64,000 bases of DNA from Fundidesulfovibrio soli (GTDB lineage: Bacteria; Desulfobacterota; Desulfovibrionia; Desulfovibrionales; Desulfovibrionaceae): positions 682,001 through 746,000 of the forward strand of contig NZ_JAKZKW010000001.1 in assembly GCF_022808695.1 (NCBI RefSeq), given 5' to 3'. This document shows, one piece after another, positions 3,553 through 61,577 of this stretch (position 1 is the stretch's first letter; each line of letters opens with the position of its first letter). A program made the position numbers and the translations under genes. The notes below the pieces were generated by a model. That model did no database searches. It was not told the origin of the DNA and saw only the letters and a list, made by a program, of their open reading frames with translations.

Positions 3553-4532
3553 TGGCCAGGGAACGCCACCCGGACCTGGACATCGGGAGGGGCCTACTGA
3601 TGCTCTTCCTGGTGTTCAACCACTCCTACAACATGCAGTTCCCGGCCGGAAACGACTGGTACATCTTCTTGTATCACGTCAGTTACTGGTACCAGATGCA
3701 GTTCTTCTTCTTCATCACGGGCATCACCATGGCCTTGAGCGGGCTCCCGAAGACCCTGGACGACTACGCGGCATTCCTGAAAAAAAGATTCTGGCGGCTC
3801 ATACCGGCCTACGTCGTCATGGCGACCATCATCTTCGCCGGGAAGATGACCGTGCAGAGCATCGGCAACGTGGGCGAGCCTCTGTCGGGCTTCAGCGCAT
3901 ACCTCACCGTGTTCATCTCGCCGAAAACGAGCCCGTACGCCTCGTTCCTGTGGTTCATCTACGTGCTGTTCCTGTTCAGCGCCGTCGCCCCACCCCTGCT
4001 GCGCCTGGCCCGCGGCCGGGCCGAGCTGTTGATCCTTCCGGCGCTGGTGCTCCACTTCCTGCCGCTGCCGGACTTCCTGGCGCTCAACCTGTGCGGAAGG
4101 TACTTCATCTTCCTGGTGTTGGGGATCGCCGTATACGACCATTACCCCGCCTATCTGCGCATCGTGGACAAGTACGTGTGGCTGCTCCTGCTCGTCTTCG
4201 CCGGGATGTGCGCCCTGGCGGTGAACGTGACCATGAACGACTTCCCCGTATCCGTATGCGCCATCCCCGCGCTGCACGGGCTCTGCCGGACCGGCCCGGT
4301 GGTCCGCTCCCGGTTACTGGCCCTGCTCGGGCAGTACATGTACCCGATCTATCTGTTCAACACGATCTTCATCAACGTGGCCAGGGGGCTGATCCTTCGT
4401 TTCGTATCCTGGGACGGCCACGCCTTTCTCCTGATCCTGCCCGTGCTGATGACCGTCGGCATCTGGGGACCAATCTGGACGCAGCGCAATGTGATTCCGC
4501 GCATTCCACTGTTGCGGAAAGTGTTCACATGA
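3552..4532 (+). CDS. Acyltransferase family 3 membrane protein
   Basis: 326 residues with about ten membrane helices. The N-terminus contains the family start RHPDLDIGRGLLML-FLVFNHS, in which the Arg and His are typical of acyltransferase-3/OafA-like proteins. FFFFITGITMALSG and LPKTLDDYAAFLKKRFWRL follow, also characteristic. Members acylate (acetyl, succinyl and others) sugars of surface glycans, using a cytoplasmic donor across the inner membrane. Here it probably decorates the exopolysaccharide. The start overlaps the stop of the Wzy-like gene by one base. Confidence 0.82.
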   Translation: MARERHPDLDIGRGLLMLFLVFNHSYNMQFPAGNDWYIFLYHVSYWYQMQFFFFITGITMALSGLPKTLDDYAAFLKKRFWRLIPAYVVMATIIFAGKMTVQSIGNVGEPLSGFSAYLTVFISPKTSPYASFLWFIYVLFLFSAVAPPLLRLARGRAELLILPALVLHFLPLPDFLALNLCGRYFIFLVLGIAVYDHYPAYLRIVDKYVWLLLLVFAGMCALAVNVTMNDFPVSVCAIPALHGLCRTGPVVRSRLLALLGQYMYPIYLFNTIFINVARGLILRFVSWDGHAFLLILPVLMTVGIWGPIWTQRNVIPRIPLLRKVFT

Positions 4533-14898: not shown

Positions 14899-14956
14899 TG
14901 GTACCGGGAGGGGGACTCGAACCCCCAAGGCCTTGCGACCGGCGGATTTTGAGTCC
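14899..14956. repeat. attL: orphan 58-bp copy of the tRNA-Leu 3' region
   Basis: Identical to 61520-61577. It corresponds to tRNA nucleotides 30-87, from the anticodon stem-loop through the CCA end, and diverges abruptly at 14957 (ATGAATAACC here, GCTGCGTCTA at the tRNA). This is the footprint of site-specific integration into a tRNA 3' end. Confidence 0.93.
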
Positions 14957-17859: not shown

Positions 17860-19359
17860 ATGACGAAGGAACAAAAACAGAACAAGGACAAGCAGGTTGT
17901 TGACTTGCTCGAAAGTCTCGAGTTTGCGAAAGACCAGGACGGTTGCATATATGCCAAAATTACACCCGACTCGAAATTTATCGAGGTCAACTCGAAAGAA
18001 TTCAGCAACTTCTTGATTCTCGCGTACAGAGACAAATGTCATAAAATTATGCCGTCCCAATTTTTATCTAATGCCAAATTCTATGCAAGTGCATACGGCG
18101 ATGGAAATGGAAAAGCAGTACGGTCTGGACTCAGATTTGGCTTCGAGAGAGGGTTTGATTACATCGACATGGCAGATGAAGAAGGAAATGTCCTAAGAAT
18201 CGACGACACAATGTACACAAAAATCAAAGATAGTCCAATAATATTTAAAACGAATAGTGAAAAACTTCCGATTAAGATCTCAGGCCCATGGGGAGATGCC
18301 AAAAAATTCTTGAAATACGCGAACTGCAGCAGTTCTGCTCAACAAATGTTGCTCCTGGTCGACTTGTGCCTCAGTCCGCTGGCAAGAATCAACCAACCCG
18401 TTACCTGCTTTGTTGGGCAGGAAGGAAGCGGAAAGACAAGCACTGCGAGCAAGTTCAGAAGCGTCTTTGACCCAACTACCCACCTTAAAGAAGACTTCGT
18501 AAAAACAAAAGAGGGGTTCTACCTAACACTGAATTCATCAGGCATACCACTCTTTGACAATGTTCGAAAGGTTGACAACTGGCTGTCAGACTTAATCTGT
18601 CAGGCTGTCACAGGAACATCATACGGCAAAAGAAAGCATTACGTAGATACGGACATGTTTAAGGTGTCAATTCAAAAGAAAATACTTGTTACCTCGATAA
18701 ATGTTCCCAGCTTCGAGCCTGACTTTCTTGATAGAGCATTGATATTTGAATTTGATAGATTGCCAATGAGCAAAAACGTCGACAGAACAATTCTTGACGC
18801 TGACTTTGGCGAAGATCTTCCTGAAATTCGAGAAGGATGTCTAAAAGCTCTTGTAGAGGCGAAAAGATTGTTGCCTGGCATCGAGCTGGCAGGATTGTCT
18901 CGAATGGGCGACTATGAACGTTTTGGCGCAGCCGTAGCTGAGGCTCTGGGTTACAACGCAAAATCATATGTGAAGTCTTTCAGAGCTCTTCAGATGAAAT
19001 TTAAGAACACAAGAGCAAAGCTGTCGGCGAACAGTTTTATCAGTGCAGTAAAAATTTTGACAGAAAGTGCAGGAAGCATAGAGGGTCGCACTTCAGATAT
19101 GCTCATTCAATTGAATAATATTGGAGATGATCAATCCAAGCTGAGCAATGATTGGCCAAAGAGTCCCATAAGCCTAGGCGTCAAGCTAAGTAAGTATGCA
19201 GCAGATCTCGAAGATCTTGGTATTGTCGCAGTAAAGTCAGAAACTAAAAATGGAAGTGTCTGGAGCTTGAAACTATTACAAACTGTAAACACGAAAGTTG
19301 AACAAATGCCTCAATCTGGGAATGACAATGACAAGAAATTTGAGAATGATTGCGAATAA
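17860..19359 (+). CDS. Plasmid/phage-type primase-helicase-like ATPase
   Basis: 499 residues, start preceded by CTGGAGAAAAAG. The core shows a Walker A motif GQEGSGKTS (about residue 186), a Walker B-like strand GIPLFDNV (about 230), a sensor-1 region KKILVTSINVPSFEPDFLDRA and an EFDRLP segment. This is the order seen in SF3/D5-like and DUF927-like helicases of plasmids and integrative elements. The N-terminal 150 residues are unassigned; the C-terminal region (about 400-480) may be a winged-helix domain. It sits directly before the AT-rich iteron region, which supports a function in initiating replication of the excised element. Confidence 0.7.
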   Translation: MTKEQKQNKDKQVVDLLESLEFAKDQDGCIYAKITPDSKFIEVNSKEFSNFLILAYRDKCHKIMPSQFLSNAKFYASAYGDGNGKAVRSGLRFGFERGFDYIDMADEEGNVLRIDDTMYTKIKDSPIIFKTNSEKLPIKISGPWGDAKKFLKYANCSSSAQQMLLLVDLCLSPLARINQPVTCFVGQEGSGKTSTASKFRSVFDPTTHLKEDFVKTKEGFYLTLNSSGIPLFDNVRKVDNWLSDLICQAVTGTSYGKRKHYVDTDMFKVSIQKKILVTSINVPSFEPDFLDRALIFEFDRLPMSKNVDRTILDADFGEDLPEIREGCLKALVEAKRLLPGIELAGLSRMGDYERFGAAVAEALGYNAKSYVKSFRALQMKFKNTRAKLSANSFISAVKILTESAGSIEGRTSDMLIQLNNIGDDQSKLSNDWPKSPISLGVKLSKYAADLEDLGIVAVKSETKNGSVWSLKLLQTVNTKVEQMPQSGNDNDKKFENDCE

Positions 19360-20327: not shown

Positions 20328-20849
20328 ATGATCATTTCGTCGGAGCTCATTTCAAGGATCTGGGCTGAGTATTCCCTGAATCCCAGAGGCATCCACGGGC
20401 TGAGTCATTGGGCACGTGTCCGCGAGTTCGGGTTGAAACTTGCCGAGACCACTGGAGCCGATCCTGTCGTGGTTGAACTTTTCGCGGTGTTCCATGATTC
20501 CCAACGCCACAATGACGGGTGTGATCCTGAACATGGTCCACGGGGCGCACAATTGGCCAGGTCGCTTTGCGGTGAGTTTTTCAAGGTTAAACCCGCTCAG
20601 TTGGAAATGCTTTGCCTCGCCTGTGAGGGGCACACGGTCGGTACGGCAGATGTCGATGAGGACATAACGGTGTTCACCTGCTGGGACGTCGACCGCCTTG
20701 ACCTGCTTCGAGTTGGAAATCAGCCAAACCCGAAATACTTCTGCACGCCAGCTGCACGGGACAGGTCAATCATTGAGTGGGCGTGTTCATGGTCATCCGC
20801 TGGATACGAAACCGAGAGACTGAAACAATGGCTTGTTCTTCTGGATTAA
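20328..20849 (+). CDS. HD-domain phosphohydrolase-like protein
   Basis: 173 residues. Metal-binding residues fit the HD superfamily: GIHGLSHWARV (first His), AVFHDSQRHNDGCD (His-Asp pair near residue 55), GPRGAQLA and CEGHT with a later DVDRLDL aspartate. Family members hydrolyse phosphoester bonds in nucleotides or signalling molecules. The gene lies 30 bases after the small PWAILGISRK gene and converges with the next gene, overlapping its stop by four bases. The substrate is unknown. Similar genes occur on many integrative elements. Confidence 0.75.
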   Translation: MIISSELISRIWAEYSLNPRGIHGLSHWARVREFGLKLAETTGADPVVVELFAVFHDSQRHNDGCDPEHGPRGAQLARSLCGEFFKVKPAQLEMLCLACEGHTVGTADVDEDITVFTCWDVDRLDLLRVGNQPNPKYFCTPAARDRSIIEWACSWSSAGYETERLKQWLVLLD

Positions 20850-24997: not shown

Positions 24998-25174
24998 TTC
25001 TGCATCCTCAATTTCTAAAAAGTATTTTTATATAAACAACAACCAGGAATAAAATATCCTGATGCTGTTATTACTTGATATGGCATTCATTGCCTCCAGA
25101 AACTGTAGGAGGGGTTTGTATATTCTCAGCGGCCATAGAGAAATAGTATGGGAAACGTACCCAGGAGGTTTTCC

Positions 25175-26599
25175 ATGCTACAAGACTATCTCAAGGCAGG
25201 TTTCCCCGCGATTTCGATTCTCACCCATGAACCAGCACGAGCTGAAAAAGTCATTCCATTCGAAGGACATTGGAGGTTCTTTGCCTGGGACTGCATGAGG
25301 GGAATACGACAAGCGGGTTGCGCGAAGATCTTAGAGGGGGTCCGTGATCCGGTAGAAGCATTATCCTGGCTCAACAACAGTATGGATACTGTCCTGCTGG
25401 CACACAACCTTCACCTGTTCACCGACAGTCCCGAGATCATACAAGCGATTCAGAACGGTGCGGAATTGTGGAAGTCGAAAGGCAACTGCCTGGTTATGAT
25501 CTCGCCGGTCATCCAGATGCGCCCTGAACTCAAGGCCATCTTCACCGTGATCGACCTGCCGCTCCCTGACACAGAAAACCTCTATTCGCTCCAACAAGAG
25601 TTGGGCAACCCCCTGAACGTCAAACCCAACAAGAAAGCCGCGCGTCTCGCTCGCGGTCTCACCGAATTCGAAGCCGAATGCGCCTACGCGCTTAGCTTGG
25701 TCAAGCGCCACTACTTCTCCTCAAAAATCATCAGCGATCTTAAATCGCAACTCATCCGTAAATCCGGTCTTCTCGAAGTCTGGGAACCGGAACATCTGTC
25801 CAACGTTGGAGGTCTGAGTCAACTCAAGACCTATATCCGCTCAAGAGCAAAGGCGTTCACGCCTGGAAACGAACATCTCCCTAGGCCAAAAGGCCTGCTC
25901 CTCGTGGGCATACCTGGAACTGGTAAAAGTCTTTCATGTAAAGCTGCTGCCAGTATCTTAGGATGGCCACTCATCCGCCTTTCTCTAGGAGATATGAAAG
26001 CAGGGATCGTTGGCGAGACAGAGAAACGCATTCGCCAAGCCTTGCAGATCATATCCGCTTTTGGCGAGTCCGTCTTGTGGATAGACGAAATCGAAAAGGC
26101 ACTTGCCGGAGTAAAAAGCTCTGGTGAGACAGACGGAGGAACTACATCAAATGTCCTAGGTGCGTTGTTACATTGGTTTCAAGAGAACACCTCACCCGTG
26201 TTCGTCATGGCAACTGCTAACGACGTTCAAAAACTGCCCCCTGAAATACTCAGGGCAGGCCGGTTCGATTCAATATTTGCAGTCGATCTACCTTCCAACC
26301 GTGAACGTAGAGAGATCATGAAGATCATGAACGCCAGATACGGCACCAACTTCTCGTTGGAATTCACTGACCAACTCAACGGATTCAGCGGAGCCGAGAT
26401 TGAACAGGTTTTCCGCGAAAGCCTTTTCACCGATTTCGGAACTGCGCTTAATGCAGTGATACCCCTCTCCCGCACAATGCGCGAAGAGATCGACGCCCTA
26501 CGCAACTGGGCACGCACTCGTGCCCGTCCGGCCAACACTCCAGACGATGCTCCCGAGGAATCCCGAAAGATCCGCACATCAACCCCTGCTATCCAATAG
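25175..26599 (+). CDS. Ycf46-like AAA+ ATPase
   Basis: 474 residues from the ATG at 25175, preceded by CAGGAGGTTTTCC; a frame extension upstream is not needed. The N-terminal half is the poorly conserved domain of Ycf46-type proteins. The AAA+ module shows Walker A GIPGTGKSL (about 245), Walker B VLWIDEIEK (about 301), sensor MATAND and arginine fingers in RAGRFD. It ends with an AAA lid. Ycf46 proteins are of unknown cellular function but occur in cyanobacteria, phages and mobile elements. It heads a tightly spaced operon with DUF1257 (Ycf35) and DUF2997 genes, a conserved combination. Confidence 0.85.
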   Translation: MLQDYLKAGFPAISILTHEPARAEKVIPFEGHWRFFAWDCMRGIRQAGCAKILEGVRDPVEALSWLNNSMDTVLLAHNLHLFTDSPEIIQAIQNGAELWKSKGNCLVMISPVIQMRPELKAIFTVIDLPLPDTENLYSLQQELGNPLNVKPNKKAARLARGLTEFEAECAYALSLVKRHYFSSKIISDLKSQLIRKSGLLEVWEPEHLSNVGGLSQLKTYIRSRAKAFTPGNEHLPRPKGLLLVGIPGTGKSLSCKAAASILGWPLIRLSLGDMKAGIVGETEKRIRQALQIISAFGESVLWIDEIEKALAGVKSSGETDGGTTSNVLGALLHWFQENTSPVFVMATANDVQKLPPEILRAGRFDSIFAVDLPSNRERREIMKIMNARYGTNFSLEFTDQLNGFSGAEIEQVFRESLFTDFGTALNAVIPLSRTMREEIDALRNWARTRARPANTPDDAPEESRKIRTSTPAIQ

Positions 26600-26607
26600 G
26601 AGGTCTC

Positions 26608-27030
26608 ATGTCGCATGTTTCCAAGATTGAGATCACGATCAATGACATAGTCTGCCTCAAGCAGGCATGTCAGCGACTCGGTTTCGAATTCCGCGAGAAT
26701 CAACGCTCGTACATCTGGTATGGGCGCTTGGTCTCTCCAGACAGATACCCGCTCCCTGAAGGCATCACCCAGCAAGACCTGGGGAAGTGCCATCATGCGA
26801 TCCACATTCCCAATGCATCCTACGAAATCGGCGTGGTCCAGCAAGGTACAAAGTTCCTGCTGCTCGCCGACTTCTGGGATACCAGTCTCAAGAACGCCAT
26901 CGGCGACGGTGGTGGAAAACTCAAGCAAGCCTACGGTGCTGAACGCACCATACAAGAGGCTCGAAGACGCAATTACCGCGTTATCGAAAAGAAGACAGCC
27001 TCTGGAATCCGCTTGATCCTCACCGCCTAA
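26608..27030 (+). CDS. DUF1257 (Ycf35-family) protein
   Basis: 140 residues, start preceded by AGGAGGTCTC, nine bases after the AAA ATPase stop. The opening MSHVSKIEITINDIVCLKQACQRLGFE and the later YEIGVVQQGTKFLLLADFWD are the hallmarks of DUF1257/Ycf35, here read in consecutive parts. A C-terminal amphipathic segment follows. The family's biochemical role is unknown. It is repeatedly found next to Ycf46-like ATPases and DUF2997 proteins, so the three probably work together. Confidence 0.82.
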   Translation: MSHVSKIEITINDIVCLKQACQRLGFEFRENQRSYIWYGRLVSPDRYPLPEGITQQDLGKCHHAIHIPNASYEIGVVQQGTKFLLLADFWDTSLKNAIGDGGGKLKQAYGAERTIQEARRRNYRVIEKKTASGIRLILTA

Positions 27031-27124
27031 ATACCAGTTCCGACATCGCTTCTAACTCTTCGGCCCCACGTCCTTTTACCCGTCCACCCGTGATCTCACG
27101 TATGGAGAAGAAGGTGTTTTGCCT

Positions 27125-27325
27125 ATGCAGAAACAAATTGTTGTGGACATTGATGATTCTGGGGAAGTCCAGATTCAAACCAAAGGTTTCAAAGGTCCAG
27201 TGTGTCTTGAAGAAAGTAAATTTCTGAAAGACCTGCTTGGCCGAGAACTATCTCAGCATCTTACCGCGACGTTCTATCAGAAAGACAAGATCGAGATGAA
27301 AAAGCACATCAACCTATGCGGCTGA
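27125..27325 (+). CDS. DUF2997-type small protein
   Basis: 66 residues from the ATG at 27125; a TTG two codons upstream is less likely. The sequence QIVVDIDDSGEVQIQTKGF followed by KGPVCLEESKFLKDLLG is the DUF2997 pattern: two strands with an acidic turn, a conserved Cys-Leu and a helix. The fold is probably a small beta-beta-alpha domain. Function unknown; third member of the Ycf46/DUF1257/DUF2997 trio. Confidence 0.75.
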   Translation: MQKQIVVDIDDSGEVQIQTKGFKGPVCLEESKFLKDLLGRELSQHLTATFYQKDKIEMKKHINLCG

Positions 27326-27350
27326 CAAAAGCCCGAAGGAGCATTTCATC

Positions 27351-28259
27351 ATGAGCAACGACACGTTCAAAAGAGCCTGTCTGGTCCAGTTGGCTACCAG
27401 CTGCTGGATCGGTGCGAAGAACATCAACCAGAGCCTTTTGGGCGACCTGGGCAGTTCTCCTGATTGGTTGAAAGGCAAGAAATTGCTCGTCAACCCAGAA
27501 CTTCTCGGTCCTATCAAAACGACCATTCAGCAATCACGGAAACTTCTGTCCCGCTATGCGCTGCCATTCCCTTTGGCAGGTCTGCATCTCGTGCCCAAGG
27601 ACTCTATCGACGAAATCGACAACAGGATGGAACAGTTCAAAAATGAATTCTGGTCCAAGGTTGATACATTCGCGACATTTTACGATGAAGCATGTTCTGA
27701 GGCCAAGTCTGCTCTTGGAGAACTATTCTCTGAGACAGATTACCCACAGGACATCAAATCGAAGTTCCGCTTTGCATGGTCTTTTATCGTGCTTGATGTT
27801 CCGTCCAAGGCTTCGTTCCTCTCTCCAGAAATTTATCAGAAGGAGAAACAGAAGTTCCAGGACTTAATGACCGAGACACGTGAATTGGCTGTTGCTGCAT
27901 TGCGTGAAGAATTCGGGGAGATCATCACCCATCTTTCCGAAAAGATCACCGGCGGCGACAAGCCCAAGATCATCCGATCCAACATGTCCAACCGCATCAA
28001 CGAATTTCTGGACGGCTTTGCTGACAGAAATCTCTTCCAGGACGAAACCCTGGCAAAACTGGTCGATGAGGCCCGAGGTCTGGTCAAGACTCTGAACGGA
28101 AATCCCTACGGTGTTCAATACAACGAGGTTCTCCGTCAGAAGGTCACTCACGACTTCAGCGCGCTCAAAACCGCCATTGATGCTGCCATTGAGGAAATGC
28201 CCCGGCGACGCATCCTGTTGGATTCCGTCGATAGGGGGTCACTTCCAAACGCAGCGTGA
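27351..28259 (+). CDS. DUF3150-like protein
   Basis: 302 residues, GAAGGAGC before the start, 25 bases after the DUF2997 gene. Predominantly helical and charged, with WIGAKNINQSLLGD near the start, RYALPFPLAGLHLVPKD, then long helices, matching the phage and mobile-element DUF3150 family in length and pattern. No enzyme motif is visible. Its fixed place beside an AAA+ ATPase suggests a substrate-adaptor or structural partner for the motor. This is inference. Confidence 0.68.
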   Translation: MSNDTFKRACLVQLATSCWIGAKNINQSLLGDLGSSPDWLKGKKLLVNPELLGPIKTTIQQSRKLLSRYALPFPLAGLHLVPKDSIDEIDNRMEQFKNEFWSKVDTFATFYDEACSEAKSALGELFSETDYPQDIKSKFRFAWSFIVLDVPSKASFLSPEIYQKEKQKFQDLMTETRELAVAALREEFGEIITHLSEKITGGDKPKIIRSNMSNRINEFLDGFADRNLFQDETLAKLVDEARGLVKTLNGNPYGVQYNEVLRQKVTHDFSALKTAIDAAIEEMPRRRILLDSVDRGSLPNAA

Positions 28260-28298
28260 AGACTGACCATTTCTGTCAGACATCGCATCCTAAAAACA

Positions 28299-28335
28299 GG
28301 GAGGTGGCCAAACCGGCTGCCTCCCGTTCCATTTT
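28299..28335 (+). terminator. Possible hairpin/attenuator inside the operon
   Basis: GGGAGG (28299-28304) pairs with CCTCCC (28320-28325), followed by GTTCCATTTT. It lies between DUF3150 and the nuclease gene. The stem is short and the T-run weak, so partial read-through is expected. Confidence 0.35.
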
Positions 28336-28364
28336 CTGGAACAACAGAAAGCGAGGATATACCC

Positions 28365-29246
28365 ATGCCACTTACTCTCTCGAAGACGAAGCTCATGGCT
28401 TACATCTCCTGCCCGGAGAAATTCCGACTGAGATATGGCCTGCGGCTGAAACCGCTACGGGATGATCCCGCCCTCATTGAAGGCCGCGCCATTCATCACC
28501 TGGTCGAGTCGGGTCTCATGTACCGTGACGCCATCGAGGACGTGCTCCCGGTCGCAAATATGCGGTTCTGGGAATCCACGCCTTTCGAGACCTGCGGCTA
28601 CGATACCATCGAAGACTACCAACATGCTCAGACACGGTGCCTATCGGACTCCATAAAATTTCTCGAGCTGATCGGCCCCATGCCTATCTTGGCCGTCGAG
28701 AAAGATATCCAAGTGCCCCTGACCCATCCGTTCACCGGCGAGGTCTGGGACAGCATCACCATACGCGGTCTTATTGATTTGGTTTCAGAAACCGAATCCG
28801 GCCCTGCTGTCATCGACATCAAGACCGTGGGGCGCACACCATCCATGAAAATGGCTGCCATTTCGTCAGAATTGGCCCTGTATGCATACCTGCTGGCGTA
28901 TCCTGACTACTGGGATGCCAGGCCTGTCGAGGTCGCATTCCTGAACCTTATCCGTACCAAGGAACCCAAGATTACCTATGACAAGGCAGTTCTTGGTCTG
29001 GACGAATTTGAAAACATTGTCACAACATGTCGTCAGGTGGCAGCATCAATCAAGCTCGGTCATTTCTGGAAGAATCCCGGAATGCAATGCGGTTGGTGCT
29101 CCTACAAATCCCTCTGTCATGGTGACAAGCAGACCGCTGTCAATATGCTTGGCGAATACGCCTGGGAATTCTACCAGATGACCAAGGACGTAGTTGCCTA
29201 TCAGCAGTTGTCACCAACTTTGAACCCGCACGATCAGGCGGCATAG
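28365..29246 (+). CDS. Cas4/RecB-like PD-(D/E)XK nuclease with probable Fe-S cluster
   Basis: 293 residues, start preceded by GCGAGGA. The nuclease core reads GRAIHHLVESG (motif I His), LIDLVSETESGPAVIDIKTVG (motifs II-III, Asp and DxK) and SELALYAYLL (motif IV region). One cysteine near the N-terminus (ISCPEKFRLRYG) and three at the C-terminus (CGWCSYKSLC) reproduce the four-cysteine iron-sulfur arrangement of Cas4, AddB and related exonucleases. There is no CRISPR array or other cas gene here. With the following Sak4-like gene it forms a phage-type recombination module, the exonuclease preparing single-stranded ends. Confidence 0.85.
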   Translation: MPLTLSKTKLMAYISCPEKFRLRYGLRLKPLRDDPALIEGRAIHHLVESGLMYRDAIEDVLPVANMRFWESTPFETCGYDTIEDYQHAQTRCLSDSIKFLELIGPMPILAVEKDIQVPLTHPFTGEVWDSITIRGLIDLVSETESGPAVIDIKTVGRTPSMKMAAISSELALYAYLLAYPDYWDARPVEVAFLNLIRTKEPKITYDKAVLGLDEFENIVTTCRQVAASIKLGHFWKNPGMQCGWCSYKSLCHGDKQTAVNMLGEYAWEFYQMTKDVVAYQQLSPTLNPHDQAA

Positions 29247-29258
29247 GAGGTTATTGCC

Positions 29259-30182
29259 ATGTTCAAGAAAGCTACACGCGAAAGTGCAAAGCTCCGCCTT
29301 GCCCTTACTGGTCCTGCTGGTAGTGGCAAAACCTACTCGTCCCTCCAGATTGCCAAAGGCCTCGGTGGCCGCATCGCGATGATAGATACAGAGCGTGGCT
29401 CCGGTGCTCTCTACGCCAACATCGTTGACTATGACGTGCTCAGGATTGATCCACCTTTTGAGCCCAAGAAGTTCCTTGAAGGCATTAAAGCGGCAGAAGA
29501 TGCTGGGTACGACGTGCTCATCATCGATTCACTCTCACATGCATGGGCTGGAGACGGTGGAATTCTTACGATCCATGACCGTACCGCCAAGGCCGTACGG
29601 AATTCGTTCGATGCATGGCGTGAGGTTACCCCGGTCCACAACCAACTGGTAGACGCGATCCTGGCCAGCACCTGTCATGTCATCGTGACCATGCGCACCA
29701 AGACCGGTTATGAGGTCACTACCGAAAGCGGAAAGACCAAGGTCTCAAAAGTGGGCCTCGCCCCCATTCAGCGAGATGGCCTGGAGTATGAATTCACTGT
29801 GGTCATGGATCTCTCGATTGAGGGTCATGTCGCAACAGCATCGAAAGACCGAACCGGCCTGTTCGATAGCTCACGCTTGACGCCGACTCCCGAGACAGGC
29901 AAAAAAGTATTGGAATGGCTAGAAGGTTCGGGAATTTCGACTGAAACGGTTGAGAAGCCTGGATTGAAAACCTTGATGGAGACCTTCGGCCACCTCGGCA
30001 TCGACGATCTCCAAGACGAATATACCGCTTACATTTGTGAGCGGTACGGGGTTTCAGGGATGGACGAAATCAATGCCAGCCAGACCACTGAGCAGATCAC
30101 TATGCTCAAGCAGTGTCTGGCGCGTGAGGAGAAGATGTCCCAGTTTGCCGACATCCTTCGGGATAGAAAGCTGGCGGCTTAA
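29259..30182 (+). CDS. Sak4-like RecA-fold ATPase (AAA_24, phage recombinase type)
   Basis: 307 residues, GGAGG before the start, 12 bases after the nuclease stop. Walker A GPAGSGKTY lies at about residue 20, with RIAMIDTERGSG, Walker B DVLIIDSLSHAW and the MRTKTGYE/GLEYEFTVVMDLS region typical of Sak4/AAA_24 proteins. These are single-domain RecA-like proteins that support annealing or strand-exchange recombination in phages. The C-terminal 60 residues are helical. The terminator at 30204-30229 follows. In this island the pair may repair or recombine the excised element, or take part in defence. Confidence 0.83.
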   Translation: MFKKATRESAKLRLALTGPAGSGKTYSSLQIAKGLGGRIAMIDTERGSGALYANIVDYDVLRIDPPFEPKKFLEGIKAAEDAGYDVLIIDSLSHAWAGDGGILTIHDRTAKAVRNSFDAWREVTPVHNQLVDAILASTCHVIVTMRTKTGYEVTTESGKTKVSKVGLAPIQRDGLEYEFTVVMDLSIEGHVATASKDRTGLFDSSRLTPTPETGKKVLEWLEGSGISTETVEKPGLKTLMETFGHLGIDDLQDEYTAYICERYGVSGMDEINASQTTEQITMLKQCLAREEKMSQFADILRDRKLAA

Positions 30183-30203: not shown

Positions 30204-30229
30204 GGGCCGAGAGATCGGCCCTTTTATTT
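30204..30229 (+). terminator. Intrinsic terminator ending the AAA/recombination operon
   Basis: GGGCCGA (30204-30210), loop GAGA, TCGGCCC (30215-30221), then TTTTATTT. It separates the six-gene operon from the nuclease-MBL pair. Confidence 0.85.
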
Positions 30230-30241
30230 GTGGGGAGAGTT

Positions 30242-31216
30242 ATGACTATCCAAGATTTTGTGTCTAATTACAATGGAAATGGGCGCGGCGTTTCAGGCAC
30301 CTACCCTGCAAACTATAGCTACGATGCCAATATTGTCGGCGTTGATAAGTTAGAGGCAATTTGCAACGTAGATAGCAAGCCGAATGTCACTGGATTTCGA
30401 ACGCTCGACCCTTGGTTTATGTATTTCGTTAGTGCCCTAGAGTGTGAAACAAATAAGAACGTCGGCAAAATTTGCGTCAAGTTCAACTATGAAGAAGACA
30501 ACGTATGCAATATGAGGTCTCTAGGTAGAAGGCTTTTTTACTTGGCTGAGAACAATGGGTGGGAACTTGATTTTATGTCTGCATATGGCAATAAAATTGA
30601 ATTGAGCAATGGGCTTGAAAGAGAAAGTAACGAAATTATTAGAGTAGACTACAATGATCCAGGCGACAACAAGGAGAACGGTCGCACAGAAAAAGATTTT
30701 CAAACATTTCTTTTTGCTAGCTCACTAGCTGCGCAAAGGGAAGGACACAATACAAATGAGCGCCTCGCTATTTTTGGACCAGATTTTTTCAACTTGAAGA
30801 AAAAAAAATATCCAATTGCACGAGAATTTTCCACTGGAGCTTTTGCTGGCGAGAAAGCTCAGGCCAACAGGATTTTGCCGACATATTTTATAGATTTTGT
30901 CACCATAAACAAGTACGGGCAGTTATCAATAATAGAATTCAAGCTTAACGACAAAAAAATGGAATGTATGGCTCAAATTCTTGATTATGCGCTGTTTGTG
31001 CTAATTCACAAAAAAAGTTTTATCGACAATCTCAGGGGGCCCTTCAAGTCCAATGTAAAAGAGGATGGCGATTTTGTTTGCTACATTGCAAGCAACGCAT
31101 TTCACAAGCGGTTTTCAGAGATAGAAAAGTACTATGCTCCAAATAAAGAAAATAAGTTTGGGTTTCATTTCAAAAAAATACTTCTCGGCTATACCTCTGC
31201 TTTTGAAGAAAAATGA
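30242..31216 (+). CDS. Unknown protein with PD-(D/E)XK nuclease-like motif
   Basis: 324 residues from the ATG at 30242 (GGGGAGAG upstream). The first 200 residues are unassigned. Around residue 217, FIDFVTINKYGQLSIIEFKL is followed by a helix with QILDYA, which matches the restriction-endonuclease core: Asp, then ExK on the next strand, then a conserved Gln helix. Composition is more AT-rich than the preceding operon. It lies nine bases before an MBL-fold gene, so the two are probably one transcript. A DNA- or RNA-cleaving role is likely but not shown; the family is not recognised. Confidence 0.66.
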   Translation: MTIQDFVSNYNGNGRGVSGTYPANYSYDANIVGVDKLEAICNVDSKPNVTGFRTLDPWFMYFVSALECETNKNVGKICVKFNYEEDNVCNMRSLGRRLFYLAENNGWELDFMSAYGNKIELSNGLERESNEIIRVDYNDPGDNKENGRTEKDFQTFLFASSLAAQREGHNTNERLAIFGPDFFNLKKKKYPIAREFSTGAFAGEKAQANRILPTYFIDFVTINKYGQLSIIEFKLNDKKMECMAQILDYALFVLIHKKSFIDNLRGPFKSNVKEDGDFVCYIASNAFHKRFSEIEKYYAPNKENKFGFHFKKILLGYTSAFEEK

Positions 31217-31225
31217 GGTGAAAAA

Positions 31226-32473
31226 TTGACACGTCAAGTCGGCCTCACTGTCCACCGTTCAGCATCCGCAATTGGTGGCAATTGCATAGAGATTTCAACA
31301 TCACAAGGGGATCGACTCATCCTGGATGTTGGCAAACCTCTTGATGTCCCTGAAGATTCGGAGGTGAAACTTCCAGACACTCTCGGCCTCTACAGGCCTA
31401 TTAGTGGTGTGCTCCTCTCACACGCCCATCAAGACCACTACGGCCTTCTCCAAGCGTTGCCCAAAAACTTGCCCGTTTTTTGTGGAGAAGCAACCGCCAA
31501 GCTCATCAAATTGTCCTCCGAGATAATGCACGAGCCGATTGATCGTTCTTTCTCGACCTGGAAAAGTGACCAACCATTTGTGGTTGGGCCTTTCAAGGTC
31601 ACACCTCTTCTGACGGATCACTCGGCCTTTGACGCATACATGCTTCTGGTTGAGGTTGCCGGAAAACGAATTCTCTACTCCGGAGATTTCAGGAATCACG
31701 GACGAAAAGCTACCCTTGTCGAACGGTTGATGCGCAATCCTCCTACAGACATCGACGTGCTGGTCATGGAGGGGACAAATCTCGGAAGCGATAAACCGTG
31801 CAAAAGTGAGTCTGACCTTGAGGAAGATTTTGTCGGCCTCTTCAACCGTACACCAGGCCGTGTATTCGTTGCTTGGTCAGGTCAGAACGCGGACCGCACA
31901 GTCACGCTTTATCGAGCCTGCAAGAAAACAGGGCGGACACTTGTTGTCGACACCTACACTGCCGAGGTGCTTGAGCTGTTAGGGGAGCATGCGAAAATCC
32001 CGAGACCTGGGTGGCCAAACCTGAAGGTGGTTGTCACGAAAAATCTGTCCCGCTTCTATCGAAGAAGAGGGCGTGAAGAAGTGACTGAGCGAATGGTCAA
32101 GTATGGGATATCTGCCAATAAACTAGCCATGACGCCCGACAAATGGGTTGTGATGACTAGATCGTCGCTAATCGAAGACTACGCAGCTGCTGGTGTCACC
32201 CCAGATCCAAATGAAGTGTGGAGCTGGTCCATGTGGAGCGGTTATCTCGATAAAGGTCACGGGCAAAAAATAAAGGATTGGTTCGAAAAATCTAAAACTC
32301 CATCAACACACATACATACGAGTGGCCATGCTTCATCTGCGAATCTAGGCGAGTTTGCTAGGTATATAAACGCGAAGAAATTGATACCTGTACATGGAGC
32401 TGCCTGGAGATATGATATGGATGACTTTCCTTCGATTACTAAAATTCGTGATGGAGAACAACTCATAATTTGA
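31226..32473 (+). CDS. Metallo-beta-lactamase-fold hydrolase, RNase J-like
   Basis: 415 residues with a TTG start preceded by GAGGTG. The metal-binding motif SHAHQDH is at about residues 65-71. The further ligand motifs are LTDHSAFD, YSGDFRNHG (about 152) and the C-terminal TSGHASSANLG plus LIPVHG (about 366-395). The last two are shared with RNase J and beta-CASP nucleases, where they bind RNA ends. No full beta-CASP insert is obvious. All catalytic ligands appear intact, so a metal-dependent nuclease or phosphodiesterase is expected. Its partner is the nuclease-like gene directly upstream. An IS256-family element lies four bases after the stop. Confidence 0.8.
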   Translation: MTRQVGLTVHRSASAIGGNCIEISTSQGDRLILDVGKPLDVPEDSEVKLPDTLGLYRPISGVLLSHAHQDHYGLLQALPKNLPVFCGEATAKLIKLSSEIMHEPIDRSFSTWKSDQPFVVGPFKVTPLLTDHSAFDAYMLLVEVAGKRILYSGDFRNHGRKATLVERLMRNPPTDIDVLVMEGTNLGSDKPCKSESDLEEDFVGLFNRTPGRVFVAWSGQNADRTVTLYRACKKTGRTLVVDTYTAEVLELLGEHAKIPRPGWPNLKVVVTKNLSRFYRRRGREEVTERMVKYGISANKLAMTPDKWVVMTRSSLIEDYAAAGVTPDPNEVWSWSMWSGYLDKGHGQKIKDWFEKSKTPSTHIHTSGHASSANLGEFARYINAKKLIPVHGAAWRYDMDDFPSITKIRDGEQLII

Positions 32474-42281: not shown

Positions 42282-42617
42282 CTAGGCGAGCTTCAGCTTC
42301 AGTCCATCCTCAGTCTTCTTCACGGTGAACTTCTGCCCTTCCTCGAATGCCATCCCAGCCAGCATGTTGGCGCTGAGGACGATCCTGCCCTTCTTGTAGA
42401 CCGGGGATGACGACCTGGTCCTCGTGGTGGCACCGGGGATCTCCAGGTATACTTTCTTCTCCTGCATGAGCTTCATGAGGTGGTTCTTCAGCGTGGGCTT
42501 AGAAAGAACACCCAAAGCGACCATGATCTCTTTTTCGTTCTTCCCTTCATTGATCAGAGCGTGAAGCTTTTCGCCGTCGTACTTAGGTTCGATTCTCTCA
42601 CCTTTTTTAGCGGGCAT
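42282..42617 (-). CDS. Small DNA-binding protein with AbrB/SpoVT-like tail
   Basis: 111 residues, AAGGAGT before the start. The N-terminus is helix-turn-helix-like (LHALINEGKNEKEIMVALG, then SKPTLKNHLMKLMQEKKV), and the C-terminus reads GRIVLSANMLAGMAFEEGQKF, as in swapped-hairpin AbrB-type DNA-binding domains. A transcriptional regulator is likely. It is monocistronic, with its own terminator, and lies between the orphan block and the Druantia region. Confidence 0.68.
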   Translation of the reverse strand: MPAKKGERIEPKYDGEKLHALINEGKNEKEIMVALGVLSKPTLKNHLMKLMQEKKVYLEIPGATTRTRSSSPVYKKGRIVLSANMLAGMAFEEGQKFTVKKTEDGLKLKLA

Positions 42618-43751: not shown

Positions 43752-44085
43752 TCACAGTAGGCCCAGTTGTTTCATGAGTTGCTTCGCGTCTTGTCCAGAC
43801 AGCCGGACATATTGCGCGGTCGTGAGCATGCTCGAATGACCTAGCAGATCTTGGACAACCGGGACGGGCACGCCCGCCTTGAGCAGCTCGATTGCGCGGG
43901 TATGTCTGAGTGTGTGTGGATGCGGAAAAAGCTCTCTGGAGCCATCCTGACGTATTCCTTCCTCCTTGAGGAGCTTCGCTTCTTTTGCAATCTCATAGAA
44001 GACTTTCCTGAAATTGTTCGGATCCACTGAAAAGACCTTGCCCCGACTCTCAGGGTAAGCCGCGAGATGTACTTGCACCCAGATC
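43752..44085 (-). pseudogene. Tyrosine recombinase, C-terminal fragment
   Basis: The frame shows HTLRHTRAIELLKAGVP, LLGHSSMLTTAQYVRLSG: the HxxR, His and nucleophile Tyr of the tyrosine recombinase catalytic site. The first catalytic Arg and the N-terminal SAM-like and arm domains are missing. The open frame runs on to 44141, overlapping the end of the Druantia helicase gene, but that part does not match recombinases. A truncated integrase abutting a defence locus suggests that the locus arrived on another integrating element. Confidence 0.8.
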
Positions 44086-47000
44086 AATTTTGTACATCTG
44101 ATTGAGAACTTCTTACTTTTGTAAAAATCTCTGTCGGCCATTTATTTCCTTCAACATGTACTTGCATATCCGCTATTATTTCACCTTGCTCTGCAGGATC
44201 AAGATCAAAATTGAAGCGGCTGGCTAACCTATTGACAGATCCTGAGGACGCACGCCAATAAGAGACGCCCTGGTCGAACCTGAGGCTTAGACGCGCTCCT
44301 GTATTGAAATCAATCTCCAATAGTCGACCATGCTTCGTAGCCGTTTTGTCGACTACACGCATGGTTGCTTCAATCCCCTTGCACTGAAAAGTATGCTTGA
44401 TTGCTTGATCTCTAATCTCAATCTCTGTCCAATCAGTCCATACGGTTCGGGAAGAAAAGTTTTCGCCGAAACTCCTCTGGCCGGTTGTGATTATTTCAAA
44501 TTGTGGATTAGACCACCTGTCCCGCCCAACTGTCGACCATATACCTTCGACCAACTCGGCCAAAATAGCGACCGACAATGGAGTAAAAAGATAACGGTCC
44601 TCGTAGCGCACATGGGTTATATGGGTCCGGGGGGCAGTAAGTAACCTATGCGATTCTGCATGCCCAGCTGTTAGGAGCGACCAGAACCGTTCGCCAAATC
44701 CCTCCAATAAACCATCGCACTCGTGGTGAACGACCAACTCTCTATCCCCAGTATCAATGTTGGGAGGGCGTAAGGCGTTTGGCTCAAGTGACCGTCCATT
44801 TAAGACCAAGGTGGAGGAGTCGCTGCTCTTGACTAGAGGGAGCGACGCCATACCCCATGTGGGACCGAACGACATCGCAAGACTCTCCCCATATGCCCAC
44901 TTAACACTCTTGTGGTTGTTGTTTACCTCCGCAATCACATGACCACCGTTGACGACGAGCAAAGCGGAAACGGCAAGCACATTGACTGTTGGATGATCCG
45001 CGAGGCTGGCGAGGAAATGACGGTCGGCTGCGTCTGCTCTTTCAACAGCCTCCTCCGGGAGTACGATTGTAATCTTCCAGCCGCTACCGGCAAGACGGTA
45101 GACCAACTGGCGCAACGGTGAAATTCCAATATCCCACTCGGTTGTGTCCCCGCCTGCAAACAAACGGATGGTTAAACCTTCTGCGTGCATTGCTTCACGT
45201 ATGATAGCTTCTGCCAGAGGACTATATTCGGCGCGAGAATTGACCCCGAAATATGCCAGCTCTACTGGGAGTGATAATGTACTTAACCAGCTTTCCGAAA
45301 GCACCCGAAGGGCGGCATGCCGATCCAAACTATCGGCCTGGAATCGCTGGTCAAAATCTAAAATGCATTGGGGGCAGGCACTATCGCAGTTGGCCTTACA
45401 CAAGAGGTGTGACCTCGCGATAGAGAAGATATCATCTATAAATCGATCGGCACTGGATGCATATCCAGCCGAGTGATGATCGTAAATCAGGATCGACTGA
45501 CATCTTGTTCCGGGTTCTGGGGAAGATTCTTTGATGTCGCAGCCAAATTCATTGGCCTGAACCCCCAACCATTCCGCCACGGCGTCGCGAAGTGCCGTTG
45601 CCAGCGTCATCGCTGCAGCCCTATCCTGCAACCAGATACCATCCTCCGTTTTTAATTGAAGTTCCAAGACATCAGTAATCGATTCACAGCCGAGGGTAAG
45701 CCGAGGCTTGATTTTCCAAGGGTCATAGCTTCCTGGGCATATGGGGTCTTCAGCCCTCCCGCCACGAAGTTTGCGGTGAGGCCGAAGGAAGGCAGAGGGA
45801 AGCGTTCCGCTCACGCCCATAGGCTCCGCACGACCACAGGCTAGACATAGGGCATACCCTGTCCCATAGATTCCACGAGATTGGTGGAAAATGTGCCCAC
45901 GGGACGTGGCGCGAAAGCGGCCTAGGCTAGGATTGGGCAGCAGACGCCAGTCACCCCTGGCACTGATCCAAGGCGATTCGGGGGGCACGAAGTGCTGTCG
46001 TGTTACGTCATTATGAGGAGATTCGTATAAATCTACCGCAAATCCTGCAGGGTCTAGGAATTCCTTAATATTATCAGACTTGATGGTCGTGCCGCATGCC
46101 TGGCAATGTTGGCTTATATCCAAACTATGACTCGAACCACTGGCCCCACAACGGTGGCAGCGCCAAGCGAGACGGATATCCTGTATTTCGCGTACCTCTT
46201 GTAGGGAGGCTGGGGAGTGCCAATTCAGAGTGATTCCAGCCGAGCGGTACACAAGTCCATCCATTACCACTTCGGAACCAGGCGCATACTCCCGGAGTGC
46301 CGTCACCTTATCGCGGCTTGCAAGTTCACGCCGACGATAACGATTATCCTCCCGTCCCGCGTCCGTTTTGATTTTCTTAAGCTTATCGACAGTGAGGTTG
46401 TCGAAACTGGAAATGTGCGACGGAAAACCATAGCCAGGAAGGAACCCTTTCGTTGCTAGCTCACGAAGCAGGTACTCGCCAGCCAAACGCGACTTGTGTA
46501 TAGTGACGGCTTTGAAGGCTGGATCATCATTTCCTCCAGACCTTCGGATATCTTCCTCCTGCGTTTCCAGGGCCTTCCACTCCGCCAGCCACCCCTGACT
46601 CACCAGCTCCATTGCGTCCGCAGCCTGACGAGTCAAACTCTCCGATTGATACCCCTCATATACGCTGTGCTTAACCAGCCATTCGAGACCCGCGCATACA
46701 GAGGCGGAGATGGTCGGATTAAAGGCGCGGCACCAGGCGATGAAGTTGGCTGCTGGCTCCGATGGATCATTGAAAAACCAACCACTAGTTAGTTTAGTTT
46801 TGTCCTGATGGGCAGCAACAAGTCGTTGTGCGAGAAACTGAGTAAGTAAGAAGGAATTAACGTGGCGCTGTACAATCAGCTTGCTGTCGAGCGACACTTG
46901 CGGCGCAGGAAGGGGTGTATCAAATGCCCAGCGACTGTTGCTGAAGACCGCTTGGTCATGTGGGTTTGTTTTGCACAGGGTCATAGAGACAGAGCGAGCT

Positions 47001-50000
47001 TCTCGGCGACGACCAGCACGACCAGCGCGTTGAAGGTAGTTTGCCGGATGGGGCGGCACGTTATTCATAGTCACCATTGCCATGCCGCCAATGTCGATGC
47101 CCATCTCCATAGTAGTGGAGCACGAGAGCAGGTTCAGGTCGCCGGATTTGAAGGCCCGTTCATACAAGCTCAAGGTGGATGAATCTTGCTGTGCTGAATG
47201 CTCTGCTGCAGTGAAGAAGGGAACCAGTTCGATCACACGATCATTAAGGTCCGACCAAACACCTTCTTGTCGGAGCGGATCGATCGCCGCCTGTCTTGCC
47301 AACCACTCGCGTCCCCTGCGCATCCTGTCGAGGTCGTCATATGTGCCGCTGAATGGCTCATCATACAATGGAAGATCGACCTTCGTGCAAATGGAAGGTC
47401 TTCCTTTTATCTCACGTGGCAAATAGGGCGACAATCCTTTGAGTGTAGTATCCAAAAAGCGTCGTGTGACCGGACATATCCAAGCGCTAGCTTGAGGGGA
47501 AAATGCAAGCTGCCCCAAGGAGGTAACCCGCCCATCTGCGGCCATCTCAAATAATCCTGCACCAATGAGAACCTCCCACGCATAGTGCAGAACGGTATCC
47601 ACGCGGTCTTCCCCCTCTGCCGTCTGGATATCCGCTCGCAGGGCATGCACAAGGAGTTTGACCAGGGAATTCTGCAAACCGCTCCGCTTTGCCCTTGGCC
47701 ACCGACGCTGGTATAAACCAGTATTAGGCTCGTCACGTCCAACAATCCAGCTTTGGGGATACGGAACCCCAAGCCAACGGCGCCAAGTAATTGGAATGGA
47801 CAGTGACCCTCCTGAGCGAACGAAGAAATCCATGCATAATTTGAGAAAATTGCACCAGTCTCCAGCCGTGAAGCCCGTGGCTCGCTCAACTTCTGACGGA
47901 ATCTCCCGGATATTTTCCAGGGCGGGGTAGCTAACCGCAACCAACCCCATCGTTTCAAGGTTATTCTGACGCTTCGGGCGTCGTCCAAATTCCCGCACTA
48001 AAAATAAACGCGCTAACTCAGCAGGACCGTTTACACTACCAAAAATATCTGGAGCGAACTTCTTATAATACTTAAGCATACGCTCAAAGTCGCTTCCTTG
48101 GTCGGCAAGTCGTTGTGCAAGCTCATAAAATGGAGTTGGCTTAGGCTTAGCAAGCACAGCAAGCTCAGCCTCCTTAGTGGCTATCATGGAGGCTAAAGCA
48201 TCATTGGGCGACTGATTTTGAATAGTCGTGAGTTGGTCGATTTCGACTTTAAGTCTTGCTACTGCCTCGCTCGCCTGATGTCGTCCCTGCTGGATCGCGA
48301 TATGATAGATGAGACTTCTTATTCTCCCACGTTCCGCATCTTGCTGCAATTTAGCAGCCATGCGTGCTGCACCTTGGCGACTGTCGTTGAATGTCAACAG
48401 TCGCCGCCCCCGATACGGATGGTCGGCAGGTCTATCTCCATCAGGTGCGTATTCCAGCATGGTCGGCAATATATTGCCAAGAAGGAAAGGGGCACCAATG
48501 CGTCCCGGCTTTAGGAGCATTTTACGGCTTGTCTCACTCCCTCCGCAGAGGGGGCATCCAATGCCCGAGACTTCGGCCTCTCGGACCATCAAACGCAGGG
48601 TGTCTGCGCCTACTTCGGTAATGCGCCTGTTAACTGGATCAATATCGATTTCGCCAAGGAGGCTGTCTGGCCTGGAGGATGTCCTGTTGACGATGAGGAC
48701 TTTGTGTTGCGGGGCAGATACGGCCGTACCCTCGTCAAGTCCTTCTTCCTCTTCTCCAGATTCTGCCTCGACTTCGAGCTCGAACTCATCAACAGCCTGG
48801 GAGGATTGAAAATGCGTTAAATACCCTCCAGCCTCCCCACCTAACAAGTAGACTTCGCCGCATTCATCGCAGGAGACGACTTCGTATGCTGGACTACCGC
48901 ATTGGCAATGCTTCCTTGGGCCGAAATACACCTGCCCGAAATGCCAATCCGGATTATCCAACGCGGTTCCCACCTTGGTAGAGCAAGCGCCATTGGCACA
49001 CGCCCATAGCCCGGAGAGCGTCTGATGAAATAGATGTGCTCGCAATGGTAAATAGCAGTCTCCATTGGCGTCACTGGTAGACGAGAGTAGGTCTAGCCAT
49101 TGGAGGGCTTCCCGCTGGCCTTCCGGACTGGGTTGAACGTCGCCATGAACAACTTGGGTAACATCCGACAATCGGGCGACCGGAGGACATTTCCTGCCAC
49201 TCACGAAGAGATCGCGTAAGGCGCGGGCTATTTGGTGTTCTGTTAGAACTCGGTATCGTACTTTCGAGCATTCAGCTTCCTTATCAACCCGCCAAAGCGC
49301 CTCAAGAGAATCTCGGCGCTTTGATTTCCCCCCGGGCAGACTTGGAACGTGGCGTTCTCCTGAAATAAGGTGGACCCGATCCAGATTCACTCCTGCTGCC
49401 TCGGCAAGAAATTGTCTAAGCCGCTCCCCTCCCTTACCCTCGGGATCACCAATCGTAGCCGAAGTAGCAACGAATCTTACATTCTCAGGGCTTACCCCGA
49501 AGGCAATGAGCACACGACGAATGAGCAACGCAAGTTCTGCCGCCTGGGAGCCAACATAGGTATGCGCCTCATCAAGTACGACCCACTCGAGCTTGCCCTG
49601 CGATTCATCCAGTATTGGTTTGTCATTGGTTCTTACCAGCATGTATTCCAACATGGTGGCATTGGTGACCAAAATTGGTGGAGGTGTGGAACGAAGTTCC
49701 TCGCGATCCAGGACCTCGTTAGGGTTTTCTTTGCGTTGGCGCTGCGGCATCTGTTCTGGTGTATTTCCATTGTACAAGCAGAAACGAATGTCACCCCTAA
49801 AAGCATGTGTCCATGCCCGCAAGCGATCCCTCTGGCTGTTGATCAATGCATTTAATGGATAAAGAAATAGGGCACGCACTCCTATCAATCGCCCTTTTGT
49901 TTCTTCACGAAGTCTTACTAGCCTGTCGAGAATAGGGACCATGAAACATTCAGTCTTGCCAGATCCGGTACCACTGGCAACTATTACCGATTGAGGCTGA

Positions 50001-61519: not shown

Positions 61520-61577
61520 TGGTACCGGGAGGGGGACTCGAACCCCCAAGGCCTTGCGACCGGCGGATTTTGAGTCC
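61520..61577. repeat. attR: 58-bp core repeat within tRNA-Leu
   Basis: Identical to 14899-14956. It spans the anticodon stem-loop to the 3' CCA of the tRNA gene, so integration leaves the tRNA sequence intact. Confidence 0.93.

Follow-up and report, generated by a model that had tools for sequence, protein, structure and literature searches.

The stretch of DNA considered here (the window: 64,000 nucleotides, bases 682001–746000 of contig 1 in the 4.0-Mb genome of Fundidesulfovibrio soli) contains an integrative element and, within it, an operon of six genes, 25175–30182, that forms the subject of this study. All six genes lie on the forward (+) strand. They encode, in this order, a Ycf46-like AAA+ ATPase with an N-terminal region of its own (25175–26599, 474 amino acids (aa)), a DUF1257 protein of Ycf35 type (26608–27030, 140 aa), a DUF2997 protein (27125–27325, 66 aa), a DUF3150 protein for which we propose an adaptor role (27351–28259, 302 aa), an Fe-S-type PD-(D/E)XK nuclease resembling RecB/AddB (28365–29246, 293 aa) and a Sak4-like annealase, the RecA-fold (AAA_24) core of which (29259–29969) continues into a C-terminal helical tail (29970–30182) that recurs on ERF annealases according to profile matches and alignment. 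The first three are referred to as the trio and, together with DUF3150, as the quartet. The listing of open reading frames (ORFs) and Pfam bear out the six genes that an earlier note had read from the sequence, with each protein above the cut-off of a curated family: AAA at 97.8 bits (cut-off 21.2; PF00004, E 8.6e-28), DUF1257 at 24.2 (22.2; PF06868, the match being restricted to residues 65–131), DUF2997 at 41.7 (24.1; PF11211, E 1e-10), DUF3150 at 45.9 (24.9; PF11348, E 6e-12), PDDEXK_1 at 86.0 (22; PF12705, E 5.1e-24) and AAA_24 at 82.4 (27; PF13479, E 5.1e-23). With DUF1257 and DUF2997 partners above their cut-offs, the AAA+ gene thus belongs to a genuine trio.

The ATPase ORF opens at 25148, and the ATG at 25175, already chosen in the earlier note, is preferred as the start because AGGAGG (25163–25168) precedes it by six bases. 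The intergenic gaps amount to 8, 94, 25, 105 and 12 bp when ATG 27125 is taken as the DUF2997 start; a longer ORF from TTG is the alternative, with a gap of 88 bp. A GC-rich terminator- or attenuator-like hairpin of 11 pairs (28299–28325, +) occupies the DUF3150–nuclease gap and a terminator-like hairpin (30204–30221, +; 7 pairs, then TTTTATTT) lies 3′ of the sixth gene; both have counterparts in a second operon copy, locus L003. Such hairpins numbered 10 in the 6.4 kb scanned, as compared to 6.1 (standard deviation 2.7) in shuffles, and the corresponding DUF3150–nuclease gaps of L135 and L138 fold weakly. The six-gene set may therefore be read as one transcript with an attenuator, or as two transcripts.

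In the nuclease, residues E112, D138, D151 and K153, along with the cysteines C16, C242, C245 and C251, are invariant in 11 homologues. The cysteine pattern of RecB, AddB and Cas4 nucleases denotes an Fe-S cluster, and PD-(D/E)XK nucleases with such a pattern resect DNA. The label “Cas4-like” used in the earlier note is a loose one: PADLOC models of Cas4 match at up to 2.4e-10 (and DruK at 1.3e-5), but curated Cas4 models remain below cut-off (Pfam, 15.9 vs 22.7 bits; NCBIfam, 29.3 vs 65), and membership in Cas4 is rejected. Among PDB sequences, the closest (E 0.001–0.04) belong to UvrD/REP-type helicases that include a nuclease part, as well as to a PD-(D/E)XK protein. Neither a lambda-Exo/YqaJ-type nor a RecE-type exonuclease was recognised, as Pfam searched to E 1 returns PDDEXK_1 and Cas4 only. 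What the nuclease gene does have, 12 bp away, is a recognised annealase gene (PF12705/PHROG 69 beside PF13479/PHROG 124). Here the designation “Sak4-like” held up: PHROG 124 (Sak4) matches at E 1.4e-12, the best match being the unnamed PHROG 1366 at 2e-87, and an intact Walker A motif (GPAGSGKT) with a Walker-B-like VLIIDS places the protein in the Sak4 family. The AlphaFold2 (AF2) model of the whole protein, based on five sequences, is poor (predicted local distance difference test score (pLDDT) 55.5), and Foldseek lists chiefly KaiC and RecA among its best rows (none better than E 0.0018), interspersed with unrelated proteins; within this model, the tail is predicted as four helices forming a block with pLDDT 59–83.

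The sixth position of the operon (slot six) is occupied by a Sak4-like protein in the window and in L003, L135, L136, L140, L301, L302, L309 and L310, and by an ERF protein in L138, L139, L142, L151, L152, L307, L308 and L334 (PF04404, E 1.1e-28 in L138); L137 has an ERF gene in the same slot, broken off by the contig end. With L137 set aside, the slot-six proteins of both kinds end in a common domain of ~65 residues, incomplete in L152; the tail is borne by two annealase families, Sak4 and ERF. The Sak4 loci L301–L320 were gathered via the tail, the presence of which is no evidence there. In single-sequence searches of 48 loci, the window Sak4 matched the second copy only, and the window nuclease three loci besides the window. 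A third tail-bearing protein, from Desulforhabdus (L041, L143), has an N-terminal part without family assignment (PHROG 7838 and 7792 match weakly); Rad52, considered as its identity, was rejected, PF04098 having no match in the genome up to E 10 and Pfam none at 0.05. The gene before it resembles PDDEXK_1 below cut-off (20.1 vs 22). Sak4 and ERF proteins anneal single strands. Phage Sak4 annealases, of HK620 and others, share the RecA-like ATPase core with the window protein, which differs in its extra helical tail: at E 1e-3, the tail was seen in none of the best 80 of 191 viral Sak4 loci. Annealing by the HK620 protein is reported to be stimulated by its SSB (PMC5928155).

The proposal of the earlier note that trio, nuclease and Sak4 belong together is supported by analysis of gene neighbourhoods. 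In an alignment of DUF1257 proteins, that of the window shares 45–86% identity with the eight other rows. A scan of named genomes with a DUF1257 alignment gave 26 loci, and Desulfovibrionaceae such as Desulfovibrio piger, Mailhella and, with two copies, Solidesulfovibrio aerotolerans keep the order AAA–DUF1257–DUF2997–DUF3150–nuclease–annealase. Across 348 genomes of the class, the tail profile identified 38 places in 26 genomes, 18 of them strong, that is, at E 1.4e-15 or better. Inspection of these 18 revealed the six-gene operon at 16, under six genus and two family labels; one (G540) stops at the contig start and one (G313) shows the MoxR arrangement described below. Among the 16, the AAA gene of G379 is broken by the contig start and one G546 copy has DUF3150 in two frames. 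Nine of the strong places are themselves rows of the profile; the nine outside it comprise 7 with the operon, 1 contig-start case and 1 MoxR arrangement, and because the six-gene order recurs in these 7/9, chance adjacency is unlikely. The 9 inspected of the 20 weaker places include one operon (G378, the tail lost at the contig end), one MoxR-type locus (L312) and seven loci of neither kind (L313–L319). Decayed copies were observed as well, L137 with the AAA gene in two frames and a short DUF3150, L334 with a split DUF3150.

A broader count covers 80 loci gathered by similarity to DUF1257, DUF2997 or the AAA protein (L081 via DUF3150), not by nuclease. They are related rather than independent, and many end at contig ends; the duplicates L041, L042, L047 and L069 were removed and the near-identical viral contigs L086–L088 kept. 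Several of the profiles used in the locus scans derive from loci that they were then run against, and the E-values of those members are inflated accordingly. DUF3150 is present in 40 of the 80 loci, and the nuclease profile matches in 19 of these (L075 weakly, 6.8 kb off), as against 0/30 of the loci having the whole trio without DUF3150. Nine of the 19 also match the Sak4/tail profile, two further DUF3150 loci have the tail without the nuclease profile, and one more nuclease locus, L147, ends within DUF1257. DUF3150, passed over by the earlier note, is the part tracking the recombination genes. As a partner of the trio Sak4 does recur, but it is one of several occupants of slot six, and the trio usually occurs with neither nuclease nor annealase. 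In other, more distant ARRANGEMENTS, those of L043, L144, L145, L148, L150, L153 and L155, genes for SSB, a SWIM-finger protein and the nuclease come after the quartet; in L147, the SWIM-finger protein and the nuclease are encoded upstream of the AAA gene. Of these eight loci, 6 have UvrD next and 5 a RadC-type gene near, the SSB, SWIM-finger, UvrD and RadC families each being identified via one Pfam representative. A distant SSB gene is often found near sak4 in phages; an SSB profile from seven type-B loci, which may be too narrow, had no match in the window at 1e-5.

The element holding the operon (14899–61577) is delimited by 58-bp exact direct repeats at 14899–14956 and 61520–61577, the latter constituting the 3′ part of a tRNA-Leu gene (61520–61606); it encodes a tyrosine integrase (60378–61439, +; PF00589, E 2.1e-22) and has a lower GC content than its flanks. 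The second complete copy, L003, is located on the same contig at about 173.3–178.3 kb. Between the copies, the ratio of nonsynonymous to synonymous substitution rates (dN/dS) is 0.05–0.16 for all six genes, with dS high (0.8–2.6); both are under purifying selection. The surroundings of L003 look like another island, of uncertain boundary: 21-bp repeats are found at 153932 and 191208, the latter inside a tRNA-Arg gene, and a gene at 154070–155353 is weakly like the window integrase (18.6% over 317 residues). Apart from the operon, three genes have homologues in both regions, encoding proteins of 111 aa (42282–42617), 173 aa (20328–20849) and 499 aa (17860–19359). The 173-aa protein has an HDIG match below cut-off; the 499-aa P-loop protein has no Pfam match, and we take it to be a look-alike of SF3/primase-type helicases.

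The ATPase at the head of the operon has an intact Walker A motif (GIPGTGKS) and matches PHROG 8638 at E 1.3e-103 over residues 13–476 of the longer ORF; Ycf46 is our presumptive label for it, not the result of a Ycf46-specific model. The models that its AAA domain approaches most closely are those of CDC48, FtsH and the proteasomal ATPases, all with scores far below cut-off. AAA proteins of these types unfold or remodel other proteins. The DUF1257 profile had no match among PDB sequences below E 0.44. For DUF3150, the AF2 model is of good quality by its scores (pLDDT 83.4; predicted TM score 0.73), but the best PDB match is at E 0.91 and structure comparison gave no clear fold match; a second comparison returned helical-bundle rows only, at up to Z 10.2, which may reflect a common arrangement.

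DUF3150 occurs in 90/348 genomes of the class, and it does so in a second setting. In 14/14 MoxR-type loci inspected it is flanked, on the same strand, by a MoxR-type AAA_5/CbbQ_C gene on one side and a CobT/VWA gene on the other. Twelve of the 14 were chosen by hand from DUF3150 matches, L311 and L312 were fetched for the tail, and some share a genome; the MoxR, CobT and strong-DUF3150 profiles were built from L311, L312, L322, L324, L325 and L327, and of those six, four have MoxR and four have CobT confirmed by Pfam. The DUF3150 profile from these loci matches the window DUF3150 at 1.8e-7. The MoxR profile at 1e-30 found nothing in the 87 trio-type loci scanned (duplicates included) and the CobT profile matched in two of them, L307 and L092; DUF1257 and DUF2997 profiles were not found in any of the 14 MoxR-type loci. 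In L307, pieces matching the CobT/VWA profile (3417–4521) lie ~3 kb beyond the six-gene operon, the sole overlap of the two settings seen. Since trio-type and MoxR-type settings both carry it, DUF3150 accompanies one of two AAA+ motors. Ten MoxR-type loci have an annealase, 8 of them ERF and 2 Sak4 with tail, and in both AAA+ settings DUF3150 often accompanies annealases. These clusters thus resemble the window in having an AAA+ motor beside DUF3150 and ERF or Sak4 near; they differ in the type of AAA+ protein, in the VWA partner and in their ERF proteins, in which the tail was not found (0/8). Being the common component of both motor types, DUF3150 is the likeliest adaptor between motor and DNA complex.

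Based on the collective evidence, it is fairly probable that the six genes serve integrative elements, which carry defence cargo, as a recombination module that works like Red and that DUF3150 connects to a remodelling motor of AAA+ type. In this reading, the Fe-S-type nuclease would resect double-stranded ends, and the Sak4-like protein, elsewhere the ERF-type one, would coat and anneal the strands so exposed, with the tail serving, by analogy, as a dock. The Ycf46-type ring, with DUF1257 and DUF2997 as its presumed standing co-factors, would be connected to the DNA complex by DUF3150 and may spend ATP in loading, stripping or recycling annealase/nuclease complexes, or in displacing host proteins, with the outcome that the element could repair, replicate or shuffle its own DNA, defence cargo included. 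A remodelling role fits the affinities of the AAA domain described above, and the presence of Hsp70 genes near its relatives agrees with it. The recombination half of this reading is well supported. Gene content, intact motifs, gene order, the interchangeable annealase slot, the common tail, purifying selection and the mobile context are computed features of the loci; resection, annealing, docking and motor action we infer. An AAA+-driven DNA-processing machine, as envisaged in the earlier note, is plausible as judged from the sequences.

There are parallels to lambda Red and to Exo–Bet–Ssb of SXT, in which, too, a mobile element encodes an exonuclease next to a protein that anneals single strands, and in which the annealase offers a C-terminal domain available for docking, as the window annealase does. 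The window differs in that the nuclease is a PDDEXK_1 protein with Fe-S-type cysteines, the annealase is Sak4 or ERF, and there are four extra genes including the AAA+ motor. Because its nuclease is not of lambda-Exo/YqaJ or RecE type, the operon is described as working like Red, not as a member of it. For the SXT integrative element, it is reported that the Exo/Bet pair may repair or process the element (PMC3118119), and a study on Exo and the C-terminal domain (CTD) of Red-beta provides a printed parallel to the idea of tail–nuclease docking (PMC9512822). More tentatively, DUF3150 could be a general adaptor that connects either a Ycf46–DUF1257–DUF2997 or a MoxR–CobT/VWA motor to a phage-type annealase, with the tail as a portable part that plugs unrelated annealases into the same machine; if true, mobile elements would possess a class of recombination systems, assisted by motors, that has gone unrecognised until now.

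Several observations weigh against the reading as a Red-like module with an attached motor. The nuclease profile is missing from 21/40 quartet loci, 19 of which also lack Sak4/tail, in the stretches examined; PF12705 had no match in 10 phage, plasmid and viral records; and 4/14 MoxR-type loci show no annealase profile, two of these four having the SWIM-finger family. The tail occurs on Sak4 in the MoxR setting (L311, L312) and, in seven loci (L313–L319), on Sak4 with neither trio nor DUF3150 in view. The tail is therefore not tied to a nuclease of the window type, and the notion that it is specific to the six-gene operon is false; six of these nine loci (L311, L312, L315, L317–L319) adjoin a Gp157-like gene, called with a profile from one sequence and identified by Pfam in L312. 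As no PDB sequence resembles the tail below E 2.8, its homology to the Red-beta CTD was discarded and the comparison retained as an analogy. Lastly, the trio is most commonly accompanied by Hsp70 and HEAT proteins rather than by enzymes acting on DNA.

By itself, the trio forms a module of its own, usually without nuclease or annealase and often with Hsp70. In the phylum sample, 30/40 loci fetched were without DUF3150. Among 40 loci without DUF3150, a family identified as Hsp70 (one member by Pfam, 1.8e-12, and one by annotation) lies near the trio in 16, HEAT-repeat and 4Fe-4S families recur, and a 4Fe-4S/radical-SAM family (one representative by Pfam) is near in 5. The same three proteins as in the window operon are known from cyanobacteria, plastids, plasmids and bacterial chromosomes; unlike the operon, the 30 loci with the trio and without DUF3150 show no nuclease or annealase profile, and many have Hsp70. 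A tree of 70 AAA proteins, in which several long branches are of uncertain position, divides into two groups (support 85/96), one of 40 rows, where DUF3150 or the nuclease accompanies 36, and one of 30 rows, where 29 are trio-only; beyond the three rows nearest to the window, the next well-supported set has 24 rows, 18 with nuclease. Outlying relatives include a full-length AAA protein on a Treponema plasmid (L080, 8965–10500), within a phage-baseplate-like (contractile injection) cluster and beside a 4Fe-4S gene, and, on an IncC plasmid backbone (L090, 14001–16161), an AAA gene together with a DUF1257-like gene of remote similarity (4e-6) and one annotated as DUF2997. An alternative reading would have the trio assist, as a chaperone, in the maturation of redox proteins, those with Fe-S clusters or others, and in the window serve the Fe-S-type nuclease: that enzyme has four invariant cysteines, Hsp70 and 4Fe-4S/radical-SAM neighbours suit the role, and the Synechocystis cluster of duf2997 and ycf35 is reported to include the ferredoxin gene fed7 (PMC4284462). 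We nonetheless regard this as unlikely, for the majority of quartet loci (21/40) have no such nuclease in view, and in the MoxR-type loci DUF3150 does without DUF1257 and DUF2997 profiles throughout.

The earlier note had left the purpose of the machine between recombination of the element itself and defence. An anti-phage system, with invading DNA degraded by the nuclease, a sensing or activating part played by the AAA+ module, and the annealase acting as decoy or as sensor of phage recombination, would be in keeping with the company of the operon. The element carries a Druantia type III pair (PADLOC; 44084–53745, with DruE3 at 44084–50353 and DruH3 at 50350–53745, both on the minus strand), and the second copy comes with GmrSD-like, DUF499, DUF1156-methylase and PLD-helicase genes (L003 953–12614, contig 1 at about 161.0–172.6 kb), which match candidate defence models of PADLOC; copy L302 is followed by a type III restriction-modification pair. 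Directly 3′ of the window operon, at 30230–32473, genes for a 328-aa protein (weak PDC-S11 match, 7.5e-7; Shedu below cut-off) and a metallo-beta-lactamase-fold protein are possibly cargo. That the neighbours differ from copy to copy is, however, the behaviour of cargo. Likenesses to defence proteins within the operon comprise those of the nuclease to Cas4 and DruK already mentioned and that of the ATPase to IetA (PADLOC, 2.8e-18), which is restricted to the AAA domain (residues 226–425). IetAS and SgiAT pairs, although related in this domain, have a subtilisin, whereas Pfam found none among ten proteins scanned around the AAA gene, and membership in IetAS was rejected. DUF3150 and Sak4 proteins match nothing in PADLOC at E 0.01. 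The quartet, moreover, is present in phage Tunturi_3 (which also carries annotated exonuclease genes), in a Manganitrophus plasmid and in 7/8 viral contigs; the search of phage records gave no DUF1257 match and one of DUF3150, in Tunturi_3. Since the quartet occurs in phage, plasmid and viral contigs, recombination of the element's own DNA is the better fit and defence appears improbable. Least probable of all is that two unrelated modules, co-transcribed only or split at the hairpin 28299–28325 that separates them, met by chance in the pool of mobile genes, for, frequent as the quartet without nuclease and annealase is, the order is kept in 16/18 strong tail loci, annealase families are swapped in place and DUF3150 and annealases are found beside a second, different kind of AAA+ system too, evidence that weakens this view without disposing of it because shared ancestry within one element lineage would also keep the order.

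The reading as a recombination module thus stands as the preferred one. No account of the six-gene operon was found in the open literature searched, including passages of PMC4284462, PMC5940233 and PMC10954446; that search likewise returned nothing on DUF3150 and no established biochemical function for the trio. The six genes are best described as a conserved operon for recombination, carried by mobile elements, to which an AAA+ component is attached for reasons yet to be explained; the operon offers a testable role for the long-orphan trio. Plastids, cyanobacteria, plasmids and many chromosomes carry this trio, and its tie here to enzymes of predicted resection and annealing, activities that can be measured, gives its function a direct assay. 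If the motor acts on annealase complexes, these proteins would be ATP-driven remodelling factors for phage-type recombination, not described before, and may find use in the recombineering of anaerobes.

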